From: an uncultured Lachnospiraceae bacterium
Lineage (GTDB): Bacteria; Bacillota; Clostridia; Lachnospirales; Lachnospiraceae
Direction: 5' to 3'
DNA: 64,000 nt
Assembly: GCA_902802515.1 (NCBI GenBank)
Contig: CADCMM010000001.1
Location: 1-64,000, forward strand
Part shown: in pieces, positions 2,223 to 57,513 of the stretch
Layout of the letters: the number at the start of each line of letters is the position of its first letter
Position numbering within the stretch: position 1 is the first letter of the stretch
The notes under the pieces: model-generated
Database searches by the model: none
What the model saw: only the letters and a program-made list of their open reading frames with translations
Told to the model about the DNA's origin: nothing
Translations under genes and position numbers: made by a program

Positions 2223-3428
2223 ATGCTGAATAAAAAATCAGTTGACGATATCAACGTAAAAGGTCAGCGCGTTTTGGTTCGCTGTGACTTTAATGTTCCG
2301 CTGAAAGATGGAAAGATCACGGACGAGAACCGTCTGGTGGCCGCTCTGCCTACCATTAAAAAATTGATCGCTGACGGCGGAAAAGTAATTCTTTGCTCTC
2401 ACCTTGGAAAACCGAAGGGAGAACCGAAACCGGAGCTGTCTCTGGCGCCGGTAGCAGTTCGTCTGTCGGAACTGCTGGGACAGGAAGTGAAATTTGCCGC
2501 AGACGATAATGTAGTGGGACCGAATGCGAAAGCTGCAGTAGATGCAATGCAGGATGGCGATGTAATTCTTCTTCAGAACACCCGTTACAGAGTAGAAGAG
2601 ACCAAGAACGGAGAAGCGTTCAGTAAAGAGCTGGCTTCACTGGCTGATGTGTTTGTTAATGACGCCTTCGGAACCGCTCACAGAGCACATTGCTCCAATG
2701 TTGGCGTTACCCAGTATGTAGAAACTTCCGTAGTTGGTTATCTTATGCAGAAAGAAATCGACTTCCTGGGCAATGCGGTAAACAATCCGGTTAGGCCTTT
2801 CGTGGCAATTCTGGGCGGTGCGAAAGTAGCAGACAAGCTGAACGTAATCTCTAACCTTCTGGAGAAATGCGATACTCTGATCATCGGCGGCGGTATGGCT
2901 TATACCTTCCTGAAAGCAAAAGGATATGAAGTGGGAACCTCTCTGGTAGATGATACCAAGATCGACTACTGCAAAGAAATGATGGATAAGGCAGAGAAAC
3001 TTGGAAAGAAACTGCTTCTTCCCATCGATACCACAATTGCGAAGGATTTCCCGAATCCCATCGATGCAAAAATCGAAGTAACCGTTGTTCCTTCCGATGC
3101 TATCCCGGCTGACATGATGGGACTGGATATCGGAACCAAGACAGCGGAATTGTACGCAGATGCTGTGAAATCTGCTAAGACAGTTGTATGGAACGGACCG
3201 ATGGGTGTATTTGAAAACCCGATTCTGGCAAAAGGCACTATCGCTGTGGCAAAATCTCTAGCTGAGACAGACGCTACCACGATCATCGGCGGTGGAGATT
3301 CCGCGGCAGCAGTAAACCAGCTTGGATTTGGCGCTCAGATGTCCCATATTTCTACTGGCGGCGGCGCTTCTCTGGAATTCCTGGAAGGCAAGGATCTGCC
3401 GGGCGTAGTAGCAGCAAACGACCGATAG
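2223..3428 (+). CDS. pgk: Phosphoglycerate kinase
   Basis: Transfers phosphate from 1,3-bisphosphoglycerate to ADP. The 401-residue protein carries the N-terminal [11 protein letters not shown] signature near residues 21-31, the basic patch [10 protein letters not shown], and the C-terminal nucleotide-binding GGGDSAAA segment followed by [16 protein letters not shown]. An AGGAGG site lies just before the ATG. The C-terminal end is odd: the last codon (Arg) and the TAG stop at 3426-3428 fall inside the first copy of a 117-bp repeat, so the repeat insertion appears to have replaced the original end of the gene without damage to the fold. Confidence 0.98.
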
Positions 3429-3684
3429 CACTTAGCGAATGCGAGCTGAAAGCGAAGCATGAGGTTAGTGCGAGGCCGTTCCCGAACCTTAGCGAGCAGG
3501 CCTTGAAACGGGCTGAGAGCTTAGTTGAGGGAACATACCCGATAGCACTTAGCGAATGCAAGCTGAAAGCGAAGCATGAGGTTAGTGCGAGGCCGTTCCC
3601 GAACCTTAGCGAGCAGGCCGCGGAGCGGGCTGAGAACTTAGTTGAGGGAACATACCCGATAGCACTTAGCGAATGCGAGCTGAA
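3422..3684 (+). repeat. 117-bp tandem repeat, about 2.2 copies, between pgk and tpiA
   Basis: Unit starts are at 3422, 3539 and 3656, each beginning CCGATAGCACTTAGCGAATG, so the period is exactly 117 bases. Copies 1 and 2 differ at only a few bases and copy 3 breaks off at GCGAGCTGA before TATATATA. Because 117 is a multiple of three, frames stay open across it on both strands, giving repetitive hypothetical peptides with no ribosome binding site of their own; I do not call these genes. The repeat contains several internal inverted motifs (for example CTTAGCGA and related TTAGTTGAG words). Confidence 0.9.
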
Positions 3685-6337: not shown

Positions 6338-6349
6338 GTTATGGTGAAA

Positions 6350-6452
6350 TTGCTCATATGACTGACGGAAGTGGAAGAAACCACGGGGAGTATGAGCCAC
6401 AGAGAGCCGACCGTCTGGGCATAGGGTTTATGTCTGGTGTCCGGCTTTTTTT
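6350..6452 (+). promoter_or_regulatory. ZTP (pfl) riboswitch with overlapping terminator
   Basis: P1 is GCTCATA (6352-6358) paired with TATGAGC (6391-6397); P2 is GTGG (6371-6374) with CCAC (6381-6384), flanked by the conserved GACTGACGGAAG and CACGGGGAG segments, then a linker and the pseudoknot strand CCGTCTGGGC. This matches the ZTP riboswitch, which senses ZMP/ZTP accumulating when 10-formyl-folate is short. The terminator stem starts with GCCG at 6406 and closes with CGGC at 6442-6445 before seven T residues, so it competes with the CCGTCTGGGC pseudoknot; ligand binding should permit readthrough into purO. Confidence 0.92.
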
Positions 6453-9367: not shown

Positions 9368-9480
9368 GGGACTGTCCTATGACGGGGTGTCACACGAAGC
9401 ATTTTATTGCATAATTATAGTTTTCATGCATTTAGTGTGACATTCCCCGGATTCGTAAGACAGTCTCAGTTTTTTATTAC
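9368..9480 (+). terminator. Long hairpin with T-run between binding protein and permease genes
   Basis: GGACTGTC..CGGGG.GTCACAC on the 5' side pairs in blocks with GTGTGAC..CCCCG..GACAGTC on the 3' side around an AT-rich loop, followed by six T residues. As a partial terminator it would give more binding protein than permease, as is usual for such operons. The GTCACAC/GTGTGAC arms resemble those of element A downstream. Confidence 0.7.
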
Positions 9481-10920: not shown

Positions 10921-11230
10921 ACACCCTGTTGCATAAACAAGGAGTTGTCACACTAAATGTATACTTTAACTAAATGTAGTTTTCTGAGAGCCTCATCATG
11001 GTTTTGTATCGTCACGCGCGCTTTGCGCACCTGACAGGTCGTCGGCACCATTCCAACGACACTACGTGTCAGGATGCCTCCTCGCCGGTACTTCCTGGCT
11101 GCAAGCTTTTGCGTAGCAGGCAGGTTAGTATCCGCTGCGCATGATGGGCAGCGAGAGCGTTCTTCAGAAAACTAGATTTAAGAAAAATTATGCTTAGTGT
11201 GGCAACTCCTTGTTTTTGCAGGGCAAGTGT
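10921..11230 (+). repeat. Structured repeat element A (nested long stems with conserved core)
   Basis: A 310-base region holding no gene. The outer stem pairs 10935-10956 with 11194-11215 (22 positions, containing GGAGTTGTCACAC and GTGTGGCAACTCC). A second stem pairs TAAATGTAGTTTTCTGA (10971-10987) with TCAGAAAACTAGATTTA (11164-11180). Inside lies a core (GAGAGCCTC, GGTACTTCCTGGCTGCAAGC, GCAGGCAGGTTAGTATCC, GGGCAGCGAGAGCGTTC) that is nearly identical in element B at 53554-53736, where the arms have a different sequence but still pair. Element A also has an extra hairpin domain of about 85 bases at 11001-11085. Could be a structured RNA, a miniature mobile element, or a terminator that has acquired an insert. 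Confidence 0.75.
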
Positions 11231-20933: not shown

Positions 20934-21270
20934 GGGGTAGTAAAGGTTTCGACGGGGGTTATGCAGCTGGAGAAGCTATCCGCAGGCGATGCGTCAAATC
21001 GCGAATCTAAATATAAACGCTGAAGATAATTTAGCAATCGCTGCCTAATGGCAGCTGTCTGACTTAGAGCACCTGCACTTTAAGACCCAGGCATCGACGA
21101 TGCAGGAAACGACATATACAAAGCTTTGCGTATATGGGCGTATTATGAAGCTACTAAAAGCAGTCAGGTGTCAGTTCCCGGCTGCCGGAGGGAATGTCAA
21201 AAAACTGACTATGATAGTAGAAGGACAGTGAATTGGCTTTCGGACACGGGTTCGATTCCCGTCTACTCCA
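20934..21270 (+). ncRNA. ssrA: Transfer-messenger RNA (tmRNA)
   Basis: The 5' GGGGTAG at 20934-20940 pairs with CTACTCC at 21263-21269 to form the tRNA-like acceptor stem; the conserved TAAAGGTTTCGACGGGGG follows the 5' end and a T-arm with GGGTTCGATTCCCG precedes the 3' end. The tag frame reads from about 21001 (GCG) to the TAA at 21046-21048 and encodes ANLNINAEDNLAIAA (exact resume codon inferred), ending in the expected small hydrophobic degron. CCA is not encoded. It rescues stalled ribosomes together with SmpB. Confidence 0.97.
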
Positions 21271-21287
21271 TTATTTTTGGCAAAGAT

Positions 21288-27540: not shown

Positions 27541-27587
27541 AAAAGGGGCTGTTGCATTAAAATGCTTAATGCGACAGCCCCTTTTTA
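27541..27587. terminator. Bidirectional terminator between rpsA and the RNase H-like gene
   Basis: AAAAGGGGCTGTTGCATTAA pairs perfectly except one G-U with TTAATGCGACAGCCCCTTTT, with A and T tracts at both ends. It overlaps the last codons of the minus-strand gene. Confidence 0.9.
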
Positions 27588-48239: not shown

Positions 48240-48538
48240 ATCTAGTCGTTATCAGGAAAATGCAGTGATGGGGAGTAGTACCTTTGTCTTGGGTTTCAGA
48301 AAGCTGTCGGTTGATGTGAGACAGCAGAAGGGACATTGAGAACTGACCTCTGAGCGGCTGCCCGAACTTCCGATAGAATAGTAGGCGCAGACGGTTTCCC
48401 GGCCGTTATCCGGGCAGGATATAAGGTTTCGCACCCGTATCCGTAGAGCGCGTGATTTTTCACGAACAGGAGTGGTACCGCGTAAGATCAATAATCTTCC
48501 GTCTCTTGTGGCACATGCCATAATGAGGCGGAATTTTT
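48240..48538 (+). promoter_or_regulatory. Leucine T-box riboswitch with terminator
   Basis: Stem I carries the AGTA bulge motif (GGGGAGTAGTACC) and the CAGAAAGCTGTCGGTTGATG distal region. The specifier follows the usual GAA-codon-CC pattern: GAA (48340-48342) then CTG (48343-48345), a leucine codon, then ACCTCTGAG. The tRNA acceptor-binding T-box sequence AGTGGTACCGCG is at 48471-48482. The terminator stem is CCGTCTC (48499-48505) with GAGGCGG (48525-48531) and then TTTTT. Uncharged tRNA-Leu binding should favour the antiterminator and expression of leuA. Confidence 0.93.
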
Positions 48539-53553: not shown

Positions 53554-53740
53554 GGGCTGTCATATTAAACGATTTGTTGTATAAATATATCTTTTTGAGA
53601 GCCTCGTCTTGCGTTGGTACTTCCTGGCTGCAAGCCTGTGCGCAGCAGGCAGGTTAGTATCCATTACGCAGGACGGGCAGCGAGAGCGTTCATCAAAAAG
53701 ATATATTTATACATAATATCATTTGATGTGACAGCTCCTT
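53554..53740 (+). repeat. Structured repeat element B (short form of element A)
   Basis: A 187-base inverted-repeat element. The 5' arm from GCTGTCA at 53557 to CTTTTTGA at 53598 pairs with the 3' arm from TCAAAAAG at 53693 to TGACAGCTCC at 53739, a stem of over 40 positions with G-U pairs; its innermost 19 bases (53580-53598 with 53693-53711) are perfect. The core GAGAGCCTC, GGTACTTCCTGGCTGCAAGC, AGCAGGCAGGTTAGTATCC and GGGCAGCGAGAGCGTTC matches element A. Between converging genes; the outer stem may act as a terminator. Confidence 0.78.
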
Positions 53741-57300: not shown

Positions 57301-57513
57301 AATAATTCAACCTGGGGTGTGCGACAATCCTGTTATTTTGAACCTACATTTACTTTTATGGGATTCTTATATCGCTGTTGTTGATGCCATGCCTCCATAG
57401 AGTGGAAGGCAGAGATAGCGGCTGCGGTTACCCACCTAGCTTTGCTAGGAGTCAAAATATAGGAAACGGCACTTTGGGGGTTAAGGAGAGGGCATGATTC
57501 ATGTCCTCTTTTC
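57301..57513 (+). ncRNA. ssrS: Probable 6S RNA
   Basis: A roughly 210-base RNA with its own promoter and terminator and no coding frame. The ends AACC and GGTT and GTGTGC and GGCAC can close a long irregular stem; the top holds a TGCCTCCA-TAGAG-TGGAAGGCA hairpin, and a small CCTAGC-TTT-GCTAGG hairpin sits on the 3' side of the central region, features seen in Firmicute 6S RNAs. It ends at AGAGGGCATG-ATT-CATGTCCTCT plus a T-run (57487-57513). 6S RNA binds the housekeeping RNA polymerase. Identification is by overall pattern, not by alignment. Confidence 0.6.
57487..57513 (+). terminator. Terminator of the candidate 6S RNA
   Basis: A ten-base-pair stem with a three-base loop ending in four T residues. 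It lies upstream of the true start of the SpoIID-like gene. Confidence 0.8.

Follow-up and report, generated by a model that had tools for sequence, protein, structure and literature searches.

The described systems closest to the hairpin element considered here are the insertion sequences of the IS1182 family and the MITEs derived from them; one member, IS1272, has been reported to target stem-loops and to replace them, its new insertions showing no target duplication (PMC5678879). REP/REPIN sequences, which go with RAYT, are short intergenic palindromic repeats that reach tens of copies and often occur as inverted pairs. Bacillota also carry bcr1-type and other stem-loop repeat families, that is, repeated foldable intergenic sequences, some of which are mobile; such families are not known to combine a single core, common to many genera, with arms that are unrelated.

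Element A, a nested palindrome in a 64,000-nucleotide stretch of an uncultured Lachnospiraceae genome (the window), belongs to a hairpin family that is like the bcr1-type repeats by description. With IS1182-family sequences it has palindromic ends in common, the GGGGCTGTCGCACTAA ends being found also in an IS1182 element of genome G020, and there are sites at which a stem-loop of the sister species is exchanged for the hairpin element. However, the hairpin element has no transposase gene and contains a conserved three-way-junction core, most copies in other genomes are without IS1182-like ends, and in one clean case, unlike IS1272, it is flanked by a 4-bp duplication. The family likewise resembles REP/REPIN sequences in being palindromic, intergenic and often paired, but its arms are locus-specific and its folded core is larger. 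Moreover, no match to RAYT (Y1_Tnp) was found in G000, G215, G296, G692, G023, G246, G075 and G123, and a RAYT/REPIN system was rejected because Y1_Tnp, although present in other core-bearing genomes, is missing from several.

Structure of element A and its relatives in the window

The original prediction described A as a gene-free element in which an outer and an inner stem enclose a core that recurs in a second element, B. No open reading frame of 80 aa or more occurs in A, the inner stem and a further core stem are present as described, and the outer stem is slightly longer than claimed. The parts are given below with scores from two covariance models, R1, built from 18 own-type copies of two species, and R2, built from a second alignment of 48 cores from Lachnospiraceae, Butyrivibrio, Anaerovibrio and others, none of them from the home genome of A.

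10930..11220, + strand: element A, the whole nested palindrome (inverted repeat of 27 nt, 93%; R1 match at 10941-11209, 107.7 bits; sister-species ortholog 96.8% identical)
10930..10956, + strand: outer arm, left, the counterpart of the GGGGCTGTCGCACTAA end in other copies, here extended outward
11194..11220, + strand: outer arm, right, pairing with 10930-10956
10971..10987, + strand: inner arm, left (inverted repeat of 17 nt, 94%; covarying helix 3 of the own-type alignment)
11164..11180, + strand: inner arm, right, partner of 10971-10987
10994..11000, + strand: 5′ strand of stem P2, CATCATG, facing CATGATG at 11140-11146 (helix 4 of the own-type alignment)
11000..11086, − strand: GA-cis insertion (Rfam RF02987; matched over 11001-11085 at 53.9 bits, the gathering score being 34.7), which splits core stem P2
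11087..11146, + strand: conserved core, made up of GGTACTT, hairpin P3, TTAGTATCCGCTGCG and the 3′ strand of P2, as delimited by conservation among cores (R2 match at 11061-11181, 52.3 bits)
11150..11159, + strand: hairpin P4 with a GNRA (GAGA) loop, from the sequence and the comparison of cores

Relatives of A in the window are as follows.

53554..53738, + strand: element B, without the GA-cis insertion (R1, 199.9 bits; R2, 68.6 bits at 53589-53710)
9383..9447, − strand: short derivative that has lost the core (L062; ends matched, sequence, weak R1 match)
27545..27581, − strand: minimal hairpin GGGGCTGTCGCATTAAGCATTTTAATGCAACAGCCCC with the same ends and no core (L387)

One minimal hairpin resembles a terminator, and some copies of the element finish in T-runs beside stop codons. 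A and B fold much more stably than shuffled sequence, with z = −10.5 for the + strand and −11.3 for the − strand of A, and −12.3 and −10.2 for the two strands of B. The inner stems of A and B had been taken for unrelated sequences; in fact, they are homologous, with few compensated differences, and such stems align column by column in 18 copies.

The core said to recur in B is indeed common to both elements, except that the stretch at about 11000-11086 is a separate GA-cis insertion that B does not have. Since B is without this 87-bp stretch, which matches the Rfam model over its full length on the minus strand, ~87 bp of inserted sequence interrupts the common core in A, and A is, as judged from its sequence, a composite of a mobile hairpin element and a GA-cis RNA on the other strand. 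GA-cis occupies the same place in six other copies (L003-L006, L008 and L013), whereas relatives of A in other genomes are without it. Elsewhere in the home genome GA-cis adjoins gene starts (L001, L002 and L009-L012), with L009 and L011 forming a tandem outside the hairpin element and L012 having on either side a direct repeat of ~26 bp in which there is a likely ribosome-binding site; from these two arrangements, GA-cis looks as if it were itself duplicated or mobile.

Covariation and the Y-shaped core

The covariation seen between A and B extends to the 18 own-type copies, whose consensus has 64 pairs; double-sided compensatory changes affect 26 of these, against 9.9 expected from shuffles, and the covariation score is 0.213, compared with 0.127 for shuffled alignments and at most 0.071 for slid partners. 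In the 48-core alignment, 26 of 35 pairs are double-sided and the score reaches 0.593 (0.187 shuffled; at most 0.154 slid), and R2, although built without the home genome, still recovers both B and A. The R2 fold is a three-way junction of variable arms (P1), a stem with fixed bulges (P2) that leads to a variable hairpin (P3), and a short hairpin (P4) whose loop is GNRA in 119 of 146 cores. On the + strand, G-U pairs outnumber A-C mismatches by 79 to 43, an excess which suggests that the strand that folds is the + strand, either as RNA or as single-stranded DNA.

Compensatory changes beyond chance are thereby found together with conserved unpaired bases, the combination looked for in a structured RNA. 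Nonetheless, the proposal that covariation marks selection has to be divided between the two parts of the element. For the central core, in which unpaired bases are fixed and stems covary in many genera, the sequence comparisons leave selection on structure well supported, whereas covariation of the long arms alone is no proof of it, because template switching can rewrite one palindrome arm from the other and because, in other genomes, different copies have arms of unrelated origin.

A related structured array lies at 3422-3684 of the window, between two + strand genes. It is a 117-bp tandem repeat (2.2 copies, 95% match) whose hairpins contain the module CTTAGCGA...GAGNTTAG, the base of core P3, which has three matches in the window and none in shuffles.

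Copies and distribution

A and B are among more than 20 copies in their own Lachnospiraceae genome, and the family is real and repeated. Searching that genome with the B core gave 31 places, full and partial, and the ends alone occur 27 times within three mismatches, against 0 for a control pattern, some of these matches being short hairpins from which the core is missing. By blastn among 60 relatives, the element was found in a single sister species (G012), so that this method alone made the family appear restricted to two species; the covariance models reached further, and the homologues recovered by both means are many and bear compensatory changes. R1 has matches in 47 of 299 family genomes, which is a lower bound, as R2 detected G014 copies that had escaped R1, and a tally that includes both-strand matches of single hairpins and perhaps some weak chance hits, long hairpins being able to score on their arms alone. 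Most R1-matched sequences have unrelated stems but keep CG(T/C)YGGTACTTA, a hairpin and TTAGTATCCGCTACG, together with AGCG-AGAG-CG. A pattern scan of named genomes produced at least 120 matches, including Butyrivibrio hungatei DSM 14810, Lactobacillus rogosae ATCC 27753 and Anaerovibrio, along with some records labelled otherwise (Bacteroides, a Muribaculaceae MAG) that may be mis-binned; because the pattern fixes core bases, conservation in this set comes partly from the selection of matches, a bias of which the R1 hits are free. At E ≤ 1e-5, R2 copy numbers among the candidates scored include 53 in G215, 49 in G213, 22 in the home genome and 0 in G292. Copies are intergenic, lie in either orientation and number up to ~50 per genome.

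At the sensitivity used, no copies were found in viral contigs or in phage and plasmid records, and a phage or plasmid element was rejected on this basis. For the main element, no Rfam family reached its gathering score in the window, in A alone (E up to 1), at 20 distant loci or at 16 further loci (E up to 1), and no description of the hairpin family was found in the open-access literature searched. Ordinary RNAs recognized by Rfam in the window are a ZMP/ZTP riboswitch (6348-6427), tmRNA (20934-21273), a T-box leader (48256-48509) and 6S RNA (57306-57484).

Mobility and IS1182-like ends

The family is mobile in its own species. Seventeen own copies were compared with G012 by way of their joined flanks, which yielded one clean empty site: at L020 the whole element, arms included, is inserted relative to G012 (L199), with CTAA duplicated and no evident stem-loop at the target. 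At L029 and L034, G012 carries a different stem-loop at the same place; similarly, G334 and G335 have other terminator-like hairpins, as read by eye, where G066 has elements. At L027, left arm and right flank match in G000, whereas G012 combines the same right flank with a different left arm. The other sites compared have the element in both species, as for A itself, or a deletion in one. Nested covarying structure around a conserved core stands, but A is not simply an RNA gene, being a copy of a repeated mobile DNA element.

The link with IS1182 comes from the ends. GGGGCTGTCGCAYTAA was sought in 20 genomes and in G020 turned out to form one end of an insertion sequence of the IS1182 family, as assigned by PF05598 (E 3.5e-12) and by NF033551 matches (E 6e-29 and 2.6e-19) that fall below the model cut-off since the G020 pieces are partial. 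G020 also has core matches. The GGGGCTGTCGCACTAA ends of own-species copies are identical over 16 bases to the end of this G020 element, which is not so for most distant copies. Because most copies in G066, G085, G215, G242 and G692 are without GGGGCTGT ends, IS1182 cannot account for the core entirely. L385 and L398 (G004) and L383 (G027) are palindromic sequences with GGGGCTGTCGCACTAA ends and different, apparently structured interiors that share a GCGGAC...GTCC-like hairpin. The view that A is no named RNA is borne out for the main element in Rfam, with the reservation that A contains GA-cis and that the family has insertion-sequence-like ends and one empty site.

Arms, core pairs and gene neighborhood

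In other genomes, a near-identical inner sequence sits inside unrelated, still palindromic outer arms (six G066 copies in full, and more elsewhere). It is hardly likely that such arms diverged by descent from one ancestor around an unchanging core; locus-specific arms may have been stem-loops that served as targets and were entered at their tips, or may have been copied during insertion. In L161 and L248 the arms are alike and the core points in opposite directions. At the G334 sites L160 and L161, arms and core are both missing, in sequences too diverged to decide, and L448 in G012 is a deletion. Where two cores share a gap, 12 of 13 inverted pairs within ~700 bp are head to head, and eight more such pairs come from other sets. 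Their 5′ ends face each other, for example in L308 (3823-4090), L281 (5430-5857) and L296 (168-497), L315 being the one exception. Among genes between wider pairs, none resembles a transposase by eye, and the enclosed genes, which include deoC and those of a polysaccharide deacetylase and a GNAT protein (named by eye), have the appearance of ordinary host genes; on this ground core pairs were rejected as the ends of an autonomous element.

According to heuristic gene calls, the neighbors of 54 loci are convergent in 16 cases, tandem in 33 and divergent in 5. At the tandem loci the two orientations show no bias (17:16), and an mRNA leader or a strand-specific terminator was rejected for this reason. 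No family of flanking genes recurs beyond a few loci; judged by this lack of recurrence and the silence of Rfam, a retron, HEARO, TnpB or IscB RNA was also rejected.

Origin and role of the hairpin element

The reading favored here, held with about even confidence, is that A is a non-autonomous, stem-loop-directed MITE-like element in which nested palindromic arms surround a Y-shaped core, with an IS1182-type transposase acting in trans and the core kept for mobilization. The transposase would recognize the ends of the extruded hairpin and insert it at, or instead of, existing stem-loops such as intrinsic terminators, whereby copies would pile up between genes. Insertion at stem-loops would also nest palindromes, as in the arrangement first noticed in A. 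The core would be retained because the folded + strand, whether extruded single-stranded DNA or RNA, is needed for mobilization, which is its most likely role, at roughly even chances. We infer the transposase used, the stem-loop targeting in these bacteria and the role of the core alike, and the assignment to an IS1182-type MITE draws on the common ends, a single clean insertion and the published behavior of a relative.

Several observations argue for the IS1182-type MITE. They include the more than 20 own copies, the CTAA-flanked insertion at L020, the GGGGCTGTCGCACTAA ends common to an IS1182 element and the behavior of IS1272; the stem-loop exchanges at L029 and L034, expected under stem-loop replacement, and likewise the G334 and G335 hairpins; the lack of a recurrent flanking gene, the location of 49 of 54 loci other than between divergent genes and the unbiased orientation; and the core covariation and GNRA loops. 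Against it, the single clean empty site has no evident stem-loop as its target, unlike IS1272, a plain MITE would need no core conserved across genera, and cores pair head to head. It is conceivable, though doubtful, that the family represents an as yet undescribed class of structured elements, mobile or functional, with the Y-shaped core as the unit, spread in a structure-directed manner to the tips of locus-specific palindromic arms by a putative trans-acting enzyme, with tens of copies in Lachnospiraceae and at least one other lineage.

An unlikely reading is that of a multicopy structured non-coding RNA that serves the cell, by protein binding for example, that was spread through duplication or carried along by MITEs and whose mobility is incidental. 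It would fit the prevalence of GNRA loops, the G-U excess, the fixed bulges alongside covarying stems and the high copy numbers, but orientation to neighbors is inconsistent, no neighbor gene is constant, related genomes such as G292 are without the element, and the core is often deleted in its own species. Furthermore, single-stranded DNA also favors GNRA-type hairpins and G-T pairs.

Rather improbable is a scheme in which the core is the mobile unit, placed in hairpin tips by a putative structure-directed enzyme, or provided with new arms by copying of the flank on insertion, and IS1182-like ends were captured later. Near-identical inner sequences in unrelated palindromic arms within one genome, the opposite core orientations of L161 and L248 and the almost invariable head-to-head pairing would be explained in this way, but no gene accompanies the core, RAYT is missing from several core-bearing genomes, no empty site of that kind was resolved among the sites compared, and recombination suffices to invert a core between inverted arms.

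Very unlikely, and already insufficient for the core, is that the copies are mainly intrinsic terminators or long palindromes whose arms are kept complementary by arm-to-arm replication errors, the covariation being mutational rather than selected. The arms at L027, the T-runs beside stop codons and the terminator-like minimal hairpin are consistent with it, but neither the fixed unpaired bases and GNRA loop in genomes of different families nor the clean insertion at L020 is explained, and many distant copies have no T-run.

The IS1182-type MITE reading, like the comparisons behind it, concerns a repeat that is abundant in bacteria of gut and rumen and absent from Rfam, and the family cautions that long palindromic arms can covary without selection on an RNA. 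The strict core across genera implies a common, putative binding partner. If structure-directed insertion is true, it would give nested intergenic palindromes a natural origin and provide many test cases of stem-loop target choice.
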